A stretch of DNA of 64,000 nt from positions 62,001-126,000 of the forward strand of contig NZ_QVAI01000006.1 in assembly GCF_003427025.1 (NCBI RefSeq), given 5' to 3'. Shown here one piece after another: positions 2,679 through 52,255 of the stretch. A program made the translations under genes and the position numbers. Position 1 is the stretch's first letter; every line of letters begins with the position of its first letter. The notes under the pieces were generated by a model. The model ran no database searches, was not told the origin of the DNA, and saw nothing but the letters and a program-made list of their open reading frames with translations. The DNA comes from Jiangella endophytica (GTDB lineage Bacteria > Actinomycetota > Actinomycetes > Jiangellales > Jiangellaceae).

Positions 2679-2749
2679 GTTGATCTTGGAGTTCTTCGGC
2701 AATCGCAGGTGATTTGTCCGGTAGATGCCCGAAGAACTCCAAGATCAAC
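2679..2749. repeat. palindromic repeat, possible terminator
   Basis: Perfect 21-base arms at 2679-2699 and 2729-2749 enclose a 29-base loop. It begins GTTGATCTTGGAG, close to the GTTGATCATGGAG of the palindromes at 3686 and 38494, so it seems to belong to the same repeat family. It sits between the convergent mftD and mftF1 and could terminate both, though there is no T tract. The mftF1 stop codon (2745-2747) lies inside the right arm. Confidence 0.75.
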
Positions 2750-4232
2750 TTTGAGAGGTGGGCCGGCGCGGGAGGAGCGGCTGGGCCGTGCGGGCGCGGA
2801 TCGCGCCGCGCCACACGCCGGTGCCGTAGGCGAGGTCGTCGGCGGTGCTGGCGAGCGTCCAGCGGACCGGATCCAACGACGGGCGCAGCCGCAGCCAGTC
2901 GTGGACGGCCGGGGCGGCCAGCAGCGCCGCCAGCGTGACCAGCCGGCGGCGACGGCGCCCGGACATGGCTGCGGCAGCGACCGCGGCCGGCAGCGCCAGC
3001 TGGGTGACGGCGCGGCCGGTGCTGGTGAGAGTCGCGACGGTCGCCTCGGCGATCATCGGGGCGGCCGCCGACGACGGGATCGCGTCCCGGCGCAGCCGGA
3101 CGGCCAGCCGGGCCGTCGCGAGCGCGCCCGCCGCCGTCGCCAGCACCGGCCGGCGGGCGAGGAGCAGGGCCATCACCGCCGCAGGCCAGGGCGCCAGCAC
3201 CAGCGGGGCCAGGCGGCCGGGGTGGCGGCGGGCCAGCGGGCCGGCCGAGGTGCCGTAGTGGTGGCGGCGCCGCAGCCAGGCCGGCCAGCTCGCCGGCTCG
3301 GCATGTGCGACGGTGACCGAGGGGTCGTAGCGGACCCGCCCACCCCCGCCGATCAGCCGCCACACCGCGTCGACGTCCTCGCCGTAGCGCAACGCCTCGT
3401 CGAACCCGTCCAGAGCCGAGCGCCGGACCAGCAGTGCCGCCGTCGGCACGTAGGAGATCCGTCCGCCGGGCCGGACCAGCGCCTCGTCCGGGCCCAGGTC
3501 CAGCGGCGACCGCGCGGCCGCGAACGCGCCGAGCACCCGCCCGGCGTCAGGTGCGACGACCGGCACGATCCGCGGCGCGACGGCGACGACGGCGGGGTCG
3601 GCGAAGTGTCCGGCCAGCCGCCGCAGCCACCCCGGCGACGGGACGCAGTCGCTGTCGACGAACGCCACCACCTCGCCGGACAGAAGTTGATCATGGAGAA
3701 ATGCTGGTTCCGCGGCCGCTGGATCCTGCGTTTCTCCGTGATCGACTCGGGGAGGGGCGGCAGGCCTGGGGGCGAGGGCGGCGAGGCCGGTGTTGCGGGC
3801 GGCGGCGGGCCCGCCGGACTCCGGCCGCCGCAGCAGCCGTGCACCGTGGCGGGCCGCGACCGAGGCCACCGCCGCGGGGTCGGCGGAGCCGTCGTCGACC
3901 ACCAGGACGTCGGCGCCGGCCAGCGCGCCGAGGCAGCGGTCCAGCGCGGCCGCCCGGTCGCGGACCGGCACGATCACCGTCGCCCCCGCGGCCCGCACGG
4001 TGGCCGGCCGCGGATGCGCCACACCGGCGTCGACCAGCCGACGGGCCAGCCGGCCGGTGCGCTCGTCGGTCACGGAGCCGTCCGCACGCAGCCGCGCGAA
4101 CGCCGCCACCCCGGCCGGCGACAGTCGCAGCGCTCGCCGGGGCGAGCCGCCGAGCAGCACCCGTCCGCCGTCGAGAACGCGGGCGTCGCGGTCCAGCACC
4201 ACCCCGAACCCGGCGGGCAAGGCAGGAGTCAC
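2745..4232 (-). CDS. mftF: MftF glycosyltransferase, copy 1, with inserted repeat
   Basis: GT2-type glycosyltransferase, expected to add glucose units to pre-mycofactocin. The 495-residue chain has an N-terminal PqqD-like segment, the GT-A start (TVIVPVRDRAAALDRC, about 85-100), VVDDGSAD at 111-118, the DxD-type motif FVDSD at 191-195, the YGEDVD and RRHHYGTS blocks, and a C-terminal region with likely membrane helices. Residues about 154-183 have no counterpart in copy 2; 163-183 are encoded by a palindromic repeat (3686-3746), so the insert falls about ten residues before the DxD. The reading frame is intact. GTG 4232 overlaps the mftE stop (GTGA). Confidence 0.9.
   Translation of the reverse strand: MTPALPAGFGVVLDRDARVLDGGRVLLGGSPRRALRLSPAGVAAFARLRADGSVTDERTGRLARRLVDAGVAHPRPATVRAAGATVIVPVRDRAAALDRCLGALAGADVLVVDDGSADPAAVASVAARHGARLLRRPESGGPAAARNTGLAALAPRPAAPPRVDHGETQDPAAAEPAFLHDQLLSGEVVAFVDSDCVPSPGWLRRLAGHFADPAVVAVAPRIVPVVAPDAGRVLGAFAAARSPLDLGPDEALVRPGGRISYVPTAALLVRRSALDGFDEALRYGEDVDAVWRLIGGGGRVRYDPSVTVAHAEPASWPAWLRRRHHYGTSAGPLARRHPGRLAPLVLAPWPAAVMALLLARRPVLATAAGALATARLAVRLRRDAIPSSAAAPMIAEATVATLTSTGRAVTQLALPAAVAAAAMSGRRRRRLVTLAALLAAPAVHDWLRLRPSLDPVRWTLASTADDLAYGTGVWRGAIRARTAQPLLPRRPTSQS
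3686..3746. repeat. palindromic element inserted in mftF1
   Basis: Arms GTTGATCATGGAGAAA (3686-3701) and TTTCTCCGTGATCGAC (3731-3746) pair with two mismatches, enclosing 29 bases. It is read in frame in mftF1 as VDHGE...FLHDQL. The element at 38494-38554 has the same arms and would encode nearly the same peptide. The downstream flank (CTCGGGGAGGGG here, CTCGGTGGTGGGG there) is also alike, so the mobile unit is probably a little longer than the palindrome. Confidence 0.85.
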
Positions 4233-11905: not shown

Positions 11906-12523
11906 TTGCCCACCGACGACGGCTCCCCTGCAGGTGAGAGCGGCGCACCCCGGCTCGGACGGCGCCCGTCCACCACCCAGGCAGAGCTCAGCCACGTCGC
12001 ATTGACACTGTTCGCCGAGCGTGGCTTCGACGACACCACGGTCGAGGACATCGCGGCCGCGGCCGGCATCGGGCGACGCACGTTCTTCCGCTACTTCGCC
12101 TCGAAGAACGACCTGCCGTGGGGCGACTTCGAGGCCCAGCTGGACGGCATGCGCCACCACCTGGACGGCCTGCCCGACGACCTCCCGCTGATGGACGCGG
12201 TCTGCGCCGCGGTCATCGAGTTCAACCGCATCCCGCCCGAGGAGGTGCCGTGGCACCGGCAGCGGATGCGGCTGCTGCTGGGCGTCCCGGCACTGCTGGC
12301 GCACTCGACGCTGAAGTTCCAGGCCTGGCGCGACGTCGTGGCCGAGTACGCGGGACGCCGGCTCGGGGTGCCGGCCGGCAGCCTGGAACCGCAGGCGCTG
12401 GCGTGGACGATGCTCGGCATCGCGCTGTCGGCGTACGAGCAGTGGCTGGTGCACGAGGACGCCGACCTCACCGAGCTGCTCGAGTCCGCGCTGCGGATGC
12501 TGGGCGAGCGGTTCGCGTCGTGA
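11906..12523 (+). CDS. mftR: MftR, TetR family regulator
   Basis: TetR-type transcription regulator of the mycofactocin locus, about 205 residues. The N-terminal helix-turn-helix reads GRRPSTTQAELSHVA ... TVEDIAAAAGIGRRTFFRYF, with the FFRYFASKND block typical of MftR. I chose TTG 11906 because GGAAGGGGG stands about ten bases upstream; ATG 11885 is in frame but has no ribosome site and abuts the operator. MftR proteins respond to acyl-CoA in mycobacteria. Its stop overlaps the GTG of mftF2. Confidence 0.9.
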   Translation: MPTDDGSPAGESGAPRLGRRPSTTQAELSHVALTLFAERGFDDTTVEDIAAAAGIGRRTFFRYFASKNDLPWGDFEAQLDGMRHHLDGLPDDLPLMDAVCAAVIEFNRIPPEEVPWHRQRMRLLLGVPALLAHSTLKFQAWRDVVAEYAGRRLGVPAGSLEPQALAWTMLGIALSAYEQWLVHEDADLTELLESALRMLGERFAS

Positions 12524-14016
12524 CCCTGCCCGGCGGGTTCGGGGTCGCGCTGGACCCAGGAGCCTGGCTCGACGACGGCGTGCTGTTCGGCGGCACGCCG
12601 TTCCGGGTGGTGAGGTTGTCGTCGCCGCAGCGGGCGGCCATCGACGGCTGGCTGGCCGGCGAGCGGGTCGGCGACGACGGCATGCTGGCGCGGGCGCTGG
12701 TCGCGGCCGGGCTCGCGCTGCCGGTGCCGCCGTCCGTCGAGGCGGCCGCGTGGCCGCGGGTGAGCGTCGTGATCCCGGTGCGCGACCGGCCGCGGGCGCT
12801 GGCCCGGCTCCTGGCGGCGCTGCGCTCGCTCGGCACGCGCGAGCGGGTGCACGAGGTGATCGTGGTCGACGACGCGTCCGCCGACGCCGCCGGCCATGCC
12901 GCCGTGGCCGCCGCGAGCAGGGCGCGGCTGATCCGCCTGGACGAGCGGCACCGGGCACCGGGCGCGCGGAACGCCGGCGCCGCCGTGGCGACCGGCGACG
13001 TGCTGGCGTTCGTCGACTCCGACTGCGTCCCGGCGGCGGGTTGGTTGTCGACGCTGCTGCCGCACTTCGCCGATCCGGAGGTGGCCGCCGTCGCGCCCCG
13101 GGTCGTGGCCCTGGAGACCGGCCGCCGCGGCTGGCTGGACCGCTACGAGGAGCACCGGGCGCCATACGACCGCGGCCCACTGCCCGGCCTGGTCACGCCC
13201 GGCGGGCGCATCCCGTTCGTCCCGACGGCGACGGTGCTGGTGCGGGCCGCGCACTTCCCCGGCTTCGACACCACCCTGCGCGGCGGCGAGGACGTCGACC
13301 TCGCCTGGCGGCTGACGTCGGCCGGGCGGCAGGTGCGCTACGAGCCGGCGGCACGCGTCGCGCACGAGCACCTGACCGCGCCGCGGGCGTTCCTCGGCCG
13401 CCGCGCCTACTACGGGCGGACCGCCGCCCCGCTGGCCCGCCGGCATCCCGGCGCCGCCCGCCCGCTGGCGATGTCGCCGTGGACGGCCGCGGCGTGGGCC
13501 GCGGTGGCGCTGCGGCGGCCGGTCGCGGCGGGCGCGATCACCGCGGCGGCCTGCGCGCTGCTGGCCGCCGAGCTGCGCGGCGTGGTGGCCGACCCGGTGC
13601 GGACGGCGGTCCGGCTGGCCGGCGGCGGGACGCTGCGGGCCGGCGAGGCGGTCGCCGACGCCGTCGTGCGGACGTGGTGGCCGGCGTCGCTCGCCGCAGG
13701 TGCGCTGGTGCCCCGGCTGCGCCCCGCGCTGGCCGCGGCCGCCGTCGTGCCGGCCGTCCTGGAGTGGCGGCGGCAGCGCCCGGACCTCGACCCCGTCCGC
13801 TGGCTGCTCACCCGGCGCCTCGACGACGCCGCGTACGGCTGGGGCGTGTGGTCCGGCGCGCTGGCCACCGGCGAGCTCGACCCGTTACGCCCCGGCCTCG
13901 GCTGGCGGCTGCGGGTCGAGTCCGCCGACGACCTGGTGGCCGAGCTGCGGCGGGGCGGGACTGGGCGGGGCGGAGGGGGCGGAGGATGTTCCGCCGGCTC
14001 CGCTACGCGGCGGTGA
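12520..14016 (+). CDS. mftF: MftF glycosyltransferase, copy 2
   Basis: Second MftF-type glycosyltransferase, 498 residues, coupled to mftR by a GTGA overlap. It has the PqqD-like head (FRVVRLSSPQRAAIDGW), GT-A start VSVVIPVRDRPRALARLL, VVDDASAD, an undisturbed FVDSD motif (165-169), GGEDVDLAWRL and the RRAYYGRTAAPLARRHPG block, then hydrophobic C-terminal stretches. It lacks the insert present in copy 1. The last 20 residues are Gly/Arg-rich (RRGGTGRGGGGGG) and run into a repeat region, so the natural C-terminus may have been altered. Confidence 0.9.
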   Translation: MTLPGGFGVALDPGAWLDDGVLFGGTPFRVVRLSSPQRAAIDGWLAGERVGDDGMLARALVAAGLALPVPPSVEAAAWPRVSVVIPVRDRPRALARLLAALRSLGTRERVHEVIVVDDASADAAGHAAVAAASRARLIRLDERHRAPGARNAGAAVATGDVLAFVDSDCVPAAGWLSTLLPHFADPEVAAVAPRVVALETGRRGWLDRYEEHRAPYDRGPLPGLVTPGGRIPFVPTATVLVRAAHFPGFDTTLRGGEDVDLAWRLTSAGRQVRYEPAARVAHEHLTAPRAFLGRRAYYGRTAAPLARRHPGAARPLAMSPWTAAAWAAVALRRPVAAGAITAAACALLAAELRGVVADPVRTAVRLAGGGTLRAGEAVADAVVRTWWPASLAAGALVPRLRPALAAAAVVPAVLEWRRQRPDLDPVRWLLTRRLDDAAYGWGVWSGALATGELDPLRPGLGWRLRVESADDLVAELRRGGTGRGGGGGGCSAGSATRR

Positions 14017-38191: not shown

Positions 38192-38389
38192 GGGGGAAGT
38201 GCGGGCAGAGCCCGCCCGGTGCACCGTTCGCCGGTGCACTGTTCGTGTCGGCGGCGTGGTCGCGGCTGCCCGTTGCCCGTTGGCTGGTCTTCGATAGCCG
38301 GAGTGCCGTTTTGTGTGCCGGTGGTGGGCTGATCGCGTGGTTCTGGCTATCGAGGTCGGCCCGGGTCGGCGGCGTCACTCGCGTGGCGG

Positions 38390-38461
38390 GCACCTCACCC
38401 GCCGTAGCGCCGCATGGCGGCCGTCGGCGGCGGCTATGCGGTCCTGGCGCGGGTGAGGTGC
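38390..38461. repeat. inverted repeat with 13-base arms
   Basis: GCACCTCACCCGC (38390-38402) and its complement (38449-38461) enclose 46 GC-rich bases. Another palindromic unit of the island, unrelated in sequence to the others. Confidence 0.6.
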
Positions 38462-38493
38462 ACCCGGCCCGCGTGAAGACCGTCCCGCCAGCT

Positions 38494-38554
38494 GTTGATC
38501 ATGGAGAAATCGGGGTTCCGGCGCACTGGGAACCCCGATTTCTCCATGATCAAC
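38494..38554. repeat. palindromic element matching mftF1 insert
   Basis: Perfect 26-base arms (38494-38519, 38529-38554) with a nine-base loop. Outer arms GTTGATCATGGAGAAA are identical to those inside mftF1 at 3686. Same total length (61 bases). Confidence 0.9.
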
Positions 38555-38622
38555 TCGGTGGTGGGGTGCCACAACGGGCCGAGGCGACAGCAGCGAACCC
38601 CGAGGCGTGCCCAGACTCCCCC

Positions 38623-38750
38623 GTCCCCCTGATAGGTGCCCGTTCTTGGCCGGGAGTGCGCGGGTCAAGCGGACCATTCGCCCGCGCGAAGCGCCAATGG
38701 GTCCGCTTGAGGCGCGTGCTTCCGGCTAAGAGAATGGGCGCCAGGGGGAC
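38623..38750 (-). repeat. palindromic repeat element, copy B
   Basis: 128 bases bounded by GTCCCCCTG (38623-38631) and CAGGGGGAC (38742-38750), inverted relative to copy A. Internal arms TCAAGCGGACC (38665-38675) and GGTCCGCTTGA (38700-38710) make the whole element a nested hairpin. Confidence 0.8.
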
Positions 38751-38920
38751 GGCGAACGCGGCATACCCGGCCAACGGTCGGCCAGTCAACGAGAAGCCAA
38801 GCCGACCAGTGCGCAGACCAGGCCGGCCGACACGTGGGCCAGGCCGGCCGGCGCGTGCACCGGTCCGACGGGCCGGCTGCCAGGCGCTGCGACCCGGGGT
38901 GACGCCCTATCCTCGGGACC

Positions 38921-48227: not shown

Positions 48228-48301
48228 GCCCGAATAGCTCAGCTGGCCAGAGCAACCGCCTTGTAAGCGGTAGGTCGTCGGTTCGAATCCGACTTCGGGC
48301 T
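48228..48301 (+). tRNA. tRNA-Thr(TGT)
   Basis: Cloverleaf with acceptor GCCCGAA/TTCGGGC, D arm AGCTCAGCTGGCCAGAGC, anticodon loop CTTGTAA (anticodon TGT, reading ACA) and T arm GGTTCGAATCC. CCA is encoded at 48302-48304. Confidence 0.95.
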
Positions 48302-52118: not shown

Positions 52119-52255
52119 CCGGGTGACGTATCGAGTGTCGCCATATAGTGTCTCGTAACACCCGCAACCTGCCAGTAACCAGCGGGACAACTTCATACCC
52201 CGTCCACTTCACAACGGATCGTCCGGCACGTACCTGCCGGTGAAGGGAATCAACG

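Follow-up and report, generated by a model that had tools for sequence, protein, structure and literature searches.

Results

A palindrome read in frame within mftF1

How does a palindromic repeat come to be read as part of a mycofactocin glycosyltransferase, and what could have carried it there? We addressed this question in a 64-kb stretch of DNA from Jiangella endophytica (the window, by which we mean the whole stretch analysed), whose position 1 is position 62001 of contig C56 in the genome (G000). Three features define the locus:

2745..4232, minus strand: mftF1, mycofactocin glycosyltransferase gene with the in-frame insert (open reading frame of 495 residues; TIGR03965 profile)
3686..3746, no strand: type A palindrome, 61 bp (arms 3686-3701 and 3731-3746), residues 163-182 of the mftF1 protein
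12523..13893, plus strand: mftF2, paralogue without the insert (the stretch that aligns to mftF1; G000:C56:74523-75893)

The mftF1 product scored 410.6 bits against the mycofactocin MftF profile TIGR03965, for which the cut-off is 280. The plus strand has a perfect copy of the arm GTTGATCATGGAGAAA at 3686-3701, and its partner, at 3731-3746 on the minus strand, has two mismatches. Within the 64-kb window the arm has four matches with up to three mismatches, compared with 0.02 expected by shuffling. As single-stranded DNA the 61-mer folds with -19.4 kcal/mol (z -6.95), and none of 200 shuffles folded as well. A general repeat listing of the window does not contain this palindrome, the support for which is the arm pattern search and the folding. 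These two analyses and the open frame from 4232 to 2745 on the minus strand confirm the original prediction of a 61-bp palindrome inside mftF1 that leaves the frame intact. It was also correctly placed ten residues ahead of the DxD motif, as the DSD motif occupies residues 193-195, and correctly said to be missing from mftF2, where the aligned stretch crosses the site uninterrupted.

Six mftF1 orthologues were found in Jiangella. Five of them (in G001, G002, G008, G009 and G010) lack the palindrome and are short in the loop that joins the NTGLAA stretch to the VAFVDSD stretch. The proposed comparison with orthologues that lack the insert thus came out as expected in five of six cases, all of them within the genus, and the insert in mftF1 is indeed a dispersed palindromic repeat that preserves the frame. 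By alignment gaps the extra length in the window copy is about 23-30 residues, beyond the roughly 20 of the palindrome, and the length of this loop differs among the relatives. The sixth orthologue, in J. anatolica (G003), has about 113 bp in the loop and lacks the type A arm; at L051:1752-1866 the frame stays open through a different stretch that resembles a palindrome, GGCTTTGGCACG...CGTGCCAAGCGG. Similar arms (CCGCTTGGCACG...) occur in a palindrome of the same genome on one side of a distant homologue (L140) of the nuclease described below. Because the J. anatolica loop carries another palindrome, the mftF1 loop looks like a tolerant site that has been hit twice, presumably in independent events. 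The insert had been noted to lie beside a sugar-nucleotide site. We saw nothing remarkable about that site, given a loop that varies in length among relatives and holds a different palindrome in J. anatolica. We propose that the insertion may have survived because the loop is variable in length and the frame was kept.

Other palindromes and RNAs in the window

Besides the copy in mftF1, the window contains two further palindromes of interest and three RNA features:

38494..38554, no strand: second type A palindrome, perfect 16-bp arms (arm search and folding)
2679..2749, no strand: type B palindrome, 71 nt, GTTGATCTTGGAGT family, covering the mftF1 stop codon
28436-28551: SAM riboswitch (Rfam)
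48228-48301: tRNA (Rfam)
52197-52255: msiK RNA (Rfam)

The two type A palindromes share their outer arms, as had been noticed; at the second site they are exact (38494-38509 and 38539-38554), and this copy folds as single-stranded DNA with -30.9 kcal/mol (z -11.06). It sits in a larger stretch that is duplicated at G000:C34:65818. We therefore rejected it as an independent insertion, and the identical pair, being explained by the larger duplication, was not used as evidence of movement. The duplicated stretch (38300-38760) holds a further palindrome at 38388-38463 and, by eye, CAAGCGGACC...GGTCCGCTTG near 38667-38713.

The type B copy extends over the TGA with which mftF1 stops (2747-2745, minus strand). 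A type B copy also directly follows mftF1 in G002, and for this reason the copy at the end of mftF1 seems to predate the type A insert. An Rfam scan of the window gave only the three matches listed, and no family at the palindromes.

Palindrome families in Jiangella and other genera

With the whole 61-nt type A pattern and up to three mismatches, we observed 252 copies in 10 of 12 Jiangella genomes (10, 5, 58, 4, 6, 62, 2, 69, 0, 18, 0 and 18 in G000 to G011, in that order). The same pattern had no copies in 10 genomes from other genera of the family Jiangellaceae, and a reversed-pattern control gave no matches. The J. endophytica genome has 41 arm half sites at up to two mismatches; this genome-wide arm search bears out the expectation that the motif recurs beyond the window. 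Exact type A arms with any spacer of 16-46 are present in 117 copies in 9 of the 12 genomes. A wide contig scan for exact arms returned 34 stretches with 36 elements, all in Jiangella records; with spacers of 16-46 permitted, 29 of these elements measure 61 nt, six 60 nt and one 62 nt. The outer arms are near-invariant, which is in part forced by the search pattern. Within the interior, Watson-Crick complementarity holds for 69.5% of cases at pairs 16-28 among 82 distinct copies, compared with 51.7% when the halves were re-dealt (500 shuffles, maximum 56.4%). The type A interior is variable yet self-complementary. These 82 copies, like the 66 used below for coding context, come from fetched loci and are a subset of the 252.

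Type A is not the sole family. A search with exact arms finds 280 copies of type B (GTTGATCTTGGAGT), most of them 72 nt long, across 10 of the 12 Jiangella genomes, and G002 carries 43 of type B together with its 58 of type A. A family in genus g18, f13 (the CGAAAGCGCA palindrome), has 12-16 copies in four of eight genomes searched, with 15 exact-arm copies in G033 and 16 in G055. The families occur throughout single-contig genomes, for example those of G002 and G033. Eight stretches with the pattern were found on viral contigs, none of which encodes a relative.

Two observations concern the G002 copies. Three type A copies with one and the same interior lie near both ends of the contig (G002:C1:9410, 7708876 and 7711965), possibly as repeated chromosome or contig ends. 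The outward flanks of 27 type A copies (L102-L112 and L224-L239) are G-rich, with peaks at positions 3-4 and 8-13, which may reflect a target preference or a part of the element itself.

Most copies lie between genes

The context of solitary copies was assessed with a coding-potential scan and compared with 300 random sites, which were drawn from the 64-kb window only, also for type B and f13. Type A copies read through as genes at 3 of 66 sites (mftF1 included), against 126 of the 300 random sites (Fisher p about 2e-10), and lie between convergent genes at 14 of 66, against 6 of 300 (p about 2e-7). For type B the corresponding figures are 0/21 read-through and 11/21 between convergent genes, and for f13 they are 1/24 and 13/24. 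Insertion into a gene is the exception, and the copies favour convergent gene ends. The notion that this repeat habitually invades coding sequence, drawn from the mftF1 copy, is therefore not supported.

The other two type A copies flagged as read-through are those at L087 and L102. In a regulator-like open reading frame at L067 (named by inspection) the palindrome is read in the same frame as in mftF1, giving VDHGE...FLHDQL; the coding-potential scan did not flag this copy, though the list of open reading frames shows the frame open across the palindrome. An f13 palindrome lies in frame in a CobN-like gene at L208 (also named by inspection).

A nuclease gene lies between paired palindromes

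At three loci (L017, L066 and L069) type A palindromes occur as pairs about 1 kb apart that enclose a single gene. Its product, of about 300 residues, matches MTES_1575 REase (PF18741) and DUF559, and has an AbiEi-like N-terminus followed by a Vsr/DUF559-type C-terminus. The J. endophytica genome has such a type A gene at G000:C14:104179-105063, which escaped the original prediction because it is outside the window. The gene in G011 is identical to a J. ureilytica gene.

A search of the genus with the L066 protein, which is from J. ureilytica, gave two main subfamilies. Members of subfamily A (at least 66% identity to the L066 protein) are flanked on either side by type A palindromes at 10 of the 12 loci fetched; of the exceptions, L127 has a palindrome on one side only and L119 reaches the locus end. 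Members of subfamily B (41-46% identity to the L066 protein) have two flanking type B palindromes in six of eight loci.

In a class-wide search, 179 of 246 genomes had a match to the nuclease query. We scored 62 nuclease loci, comprising 23 from Jiangella (including the weak or partial homologues L139, L140 and L142) and 39 others (L143-L181). The 39 are 19 new class-wide loci and the next 20 non-Jiangella places listed, G074:C31:60931 being passed over. Control loci were regions 20-30 kb away (n=18, since two of the 20 intended regions do not exist). Matching arms were observed on both sides of the gene at 46 of the 62 loci (17/23 in Jiangella, 29/39 elsewhere); the corresponding figures are 0/18 for control loci and 6/90 for stretches of the window. 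A narrower scoring gave 45/62, compared with 1/18 and 6/90. Counted as misses in these figures are seven loci with no candidate palindrome on at least one side (L119, L123, L138, L145, L147, L154 and L181), among which the genes of L119 and L138 lie at or near locus ends. By a shared 10-mer test, 26 of the 39 non-Jiangella loci have related flanking palindromes, and none of the 18 controls has. Among more distant genomes of the phylum, matching arms were found at only 3 of 20 loci, where the gene ends are less well placed because the matches are partial.

The palindromes differ in sequence among genera (for example CGAAAGCGCAGT, CAGAGAAGTGGGGCACC and TGCAGTTGTTGTTGCGAC), and related nucleases have related arms, such as GTTGATCATGG in Jiangella and in G020, and GTTGATCAAGGAGAA in G216. 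For the comparison of arms with proteins, the seven loci lacking a palindrome were left out, leaving 55, and the 46 passing loci were used. Arm similarity correlates with nuclease identity: the Spearman coefficient is 0.52 when all pairs are taken and 0.26 for pairs from different genera (2000 permutations, p 0.0005 for each), so that arm and nuclease are observed to diverge together.

Several nuclease units occupy the same place in different species, with shared stretches of more than 1.5 kb (L113/L114, L115/L118, L115/L119, L123/L138, L130/L137, L152/L153 and L159/L168). It follows that the 62 loci are not all independent and that the gene-bearing unit is not very mobile. As it often stays put, it is less reminiscent of an element that hops than of a resident enzyme with an action in trans. 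Gene and palindrome numbers do not run in parallel. In G002, which has 58 palindromes of type A and 43 of type B, neither a subfamily A nor a subfamily B gene is present, so that the enzymes must have been lost or something else must move the palindromes; G010 has a subfamily A gene with 0-1 type A copies. At G002:C1:1098201-1098918 (L094) two type A palindromes flank a CobU-like gene (named by inspection), so the nuclease gene is not alone in lying between such pairs.

Features of the nuclease

Over an alignment of 46 proteins, from which L174 was left out on account of a stop in its frame, at least 96% conservation was found for S190, E193, R197, G219, D226, G240, H243, D253 and R256. We take E193, D226, H243 and D253 to be the EDxHD catalytic residues, which fits the Vsr/EDxHD type. 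The C-terminal part matched PF18741 in 18 of 18 members with E values of 0.01 or better; the L066 protein itself scored 34.2 bits, compared with a PF18741 cut-off of 38.2, and was above the cut-off for DUF559. The N-terminal half matched PADLOC AbiEi models in 16 of 18 members and Pfam AbiEi_1 in 1 of 18. Profile comparison with solved structures gave weak matches to 3hrl (endonuclease-like, E 0.014) and to 3r3p (a mobile intron protein, E 0.21), between which an unrelated gamma-tubulin component ranks (E 0.06). An AlphaFold model from three sequences had a mean pLDDT of 35.7 and was unusable.

Presence and absence at orthologous sites

Our search for empty sites of the f13 family joined 14 sites, three of which were aligned. 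Five of the fetched sites in G033 and G055 are shared. The palindrome is missing at the orthologous place in two comparisons (L208 vs L241 and L211 vs L240), so presence and absence at orthologous sites are observed for this family; they are unpolarised and do not separate gain from loss. At L216 the counterpart (L243) has another sequence in place and is not a clean empty site. The site at L221 has a contiguous counterpart, and the counterparts of L203 and L205 show a gap of about 70 bp (occupied). At the three aligned f13 sites no target-site duplication could be read, the flanks having diverged and the junctions being unclean.

Two G002 copies, L109 and L111, share 94% of their interior and 29-35% of their flanks. 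An inverted target duplication at the flanks was considered and rejected: complementarity within copies is close to that predicted from column composition.

Discussion

A model for the spread of the palindromes

The layout of palindrome and nuclease suggests an undescribed kind of mobile DNA. In our judgement the palindromes are probably non-autonomous elements moved by a cognate Vsr-type endonuclease, that is, their copying depends on the nuclease; we hold this reading with limited confidence. The mftF1 insert would be one copy of the type A short mobile palindromes, which would be served in trans by the endonuclease encoded between two copies of the same palindrome. The AbiEi-like N-terminal half might read the conserved outer arms, and the Vsr/EDxHD-type C-terminal nuclease might cut either the target or the palindrome, the latter probably in hairpin or cruciform form, whereupon repair would copy the palindrome to a new place. 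The gene-bearing unit looks to have been passed on largely by vertical descent; under such a scheme the solitary palindromes would be the mobile, non-autonomous part, and insertions would mostly be tolerated between gene ends. From the sequence comparisons, then, we infer arm recognition, cleavage and a nuclease that causes copying or transposition.

A broader reading is that these elements form a widespread, undescribed class of mobile elements in Actinomycetia, in which element-specific palindromes are copied by a cognate AbiEi-Vsr (EDxHD-type) endonuclease that co-evolves with them. This same reading would have an AbiEi-Vsr-type nuclease take over a task that elsewhere falls to HUH or DDE transposases. 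Taken jointly, we regard these two statements as tentative, falling a little short of an even chance.

The chief alternative makes the nuclease no mover at all. The flanking palindromes would be operators or terminators of an AbiEi-like regulator-nuclease, and the dispersed copies would be its regulon, or bidirectional terminators kept by selection and spread by ordinary means. The N-terminal matches to AbiEi models agree with this (16/18 with PADLOC, 1/18 with Pfam AbiEi_1), as does the binding of inverted repeats by AbiEi antitoxins, described in the available part of PMC7319586; so do the preference for convergent gene ends (14/66 type A, 11/21 type B and 13/24 f13 copies, against 6/300 random sites) and the nuclease units that are often found at shared places. 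Operators or terminators do not readily account for copies that are present or absent at orthologous sites or that lie inside genes (mftF1, L067 and L208), for near-identical interiors with unrelated flanks, or for palindromes on both sides of the gene where a promoter side alone would be expected, and we consider this alternative unlikely, though the most serious of those weighed here. A lower probability still attaches to the idea that the palindrome is older and was spread by something else, with the nuclease gene as a parasite of the homing type that settles in palindromes. Homing endonucleases of the Vsr/EDxHD fold are known, according to the available parts of PMC12350094 and PMC6083498, the mobile intron protein 3r3p is among the weak profile matches, and solitary palindromes outnumber nuclease genes. 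However, the gene lies between two whole palindromes, not two half sites, and each subfamily has its own palindrome, with arms that diverge with the protein, which a late parasite explains less simply.

If a known transposase elsewhere in the genome (RAYT/Y1 or DDE) mobilised the palindromes as ordinary REPs or MITEs, their size, palindromy and intergenic placement would be as expected from the description in the available part of PMC3733652. The gene repeatedly found between palindrome pairs is, however, a nuclease. A search for Y1_Tnp (PF01797, the RAYT domain) was negative in all 12 Jiangella genomes, while the control was positive in 5 of 14 named genomes; this contradicts the Y1 form, and a RAYT/Y1 transposase was rejected as the mover. 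On a search that covered the Y1 family, we judge mobilisation by a known transposase very improbable. As for chance or an assembly artefact, several assemblies are drafts, and with three same-interior copies near contig ends in G002 a few counts may be duplicated. Against this stand the four matches seen where shuffling predicts 0.02 and the families that run throughout the single-contig genomes of G002 and G033, and we give such an origin almost no credence.

If nuclease-dependent copying is correct, another nuclease type would join the enzymes that move DNA, a role would be at hand for many actinomycete genes annotated as DUF559 or AbiEi-like, and there would be a route by which repeats introduce extra peptide segments into enzymes, MftF being one example. 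Bacterial genomes commonly contain short palindromes whose origin is unknown, and the matched repeat families and candidate enzyme found here in many genera make a testable enzyme-substrate couple.

Comparison with known systems

We know of no mobile-element class that uses a Vsr/EDxHD-type enzyme with dispersed palindromes. In a search of the open PMC library we found no DUF559, Vsr or MTES_1575 proteins linked to flanking palindromes. The MTES_1575 REase domain (PF18741), which matches the C-terminal part of all 18 members, is called a 'Novel Vsr-REase' in PMC3710099, where it belongs to a HEPN fusion protein; the available part of that paper does not mention palindromes. The antitoxin AbiEi of AbiE systems is similar to the N-terminal part; the Jiangella protein differs in its fusion to a nuclease domain.

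The original prediction likened the insert to the palindromic elements of Rickettsia. The likeness is reasonable in that both insert in frame into unrelated protein genes (here mftF1, L067 and L208), but it does not extend to length or to the share of copies within genes. Type A palindromes measure 60-62 bp, whereas the Rickettsia elements are about 150 bp, and nearly half of those of R. conorii lie in open reading frames (available part of PMC10969869), compared with read-through at 3/66 type A, 0/21 type B and 1/24 f13 copies. No enzyme is named for the Rickettsia elements in the available parts of PMC3733652 and PMC10969869, and for the CGTC repeats, which include two R. conorii element families, the former reports that no dedicated transposase was found.

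RAYT enzymes are HUH/Y1 tyrosine transposases. The REP/REPIN and RAYT (TnpA-REP, or 'REPtron') systems resemble the Jiangella system in their short palindromes, dispersed mainly between genes. As described in the available part of PMC3733652, their enzyme gene likewise lies between copies of the palindrome, and solitary copies outnumber it. REP hairpins carry a GTAG or CGTC tag at their foot; we noticed no GTAG with the palindromes here, whose outward flanks in G002 are G-rich. The palindromes here are about 46-80 bp with long arms, and the Jiangella enzyme is of the Vsr/DUF559 type with an AbiEi-like N-terminus, not HUH/Y1. Because the enzyme type is unrelated, we do not assign the palindrome-nuclease system to REP/RAYT. 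Like the EDxHD/Vsr homing endonucleases, the Jiangella enzyme has a Vsr-like domain in which E, D, H and D are conserved. No intron or intein caught our notice around its gene, which, in contrast to theirs, lies between whole palindromes of a kind also scattered over unrelated sites.
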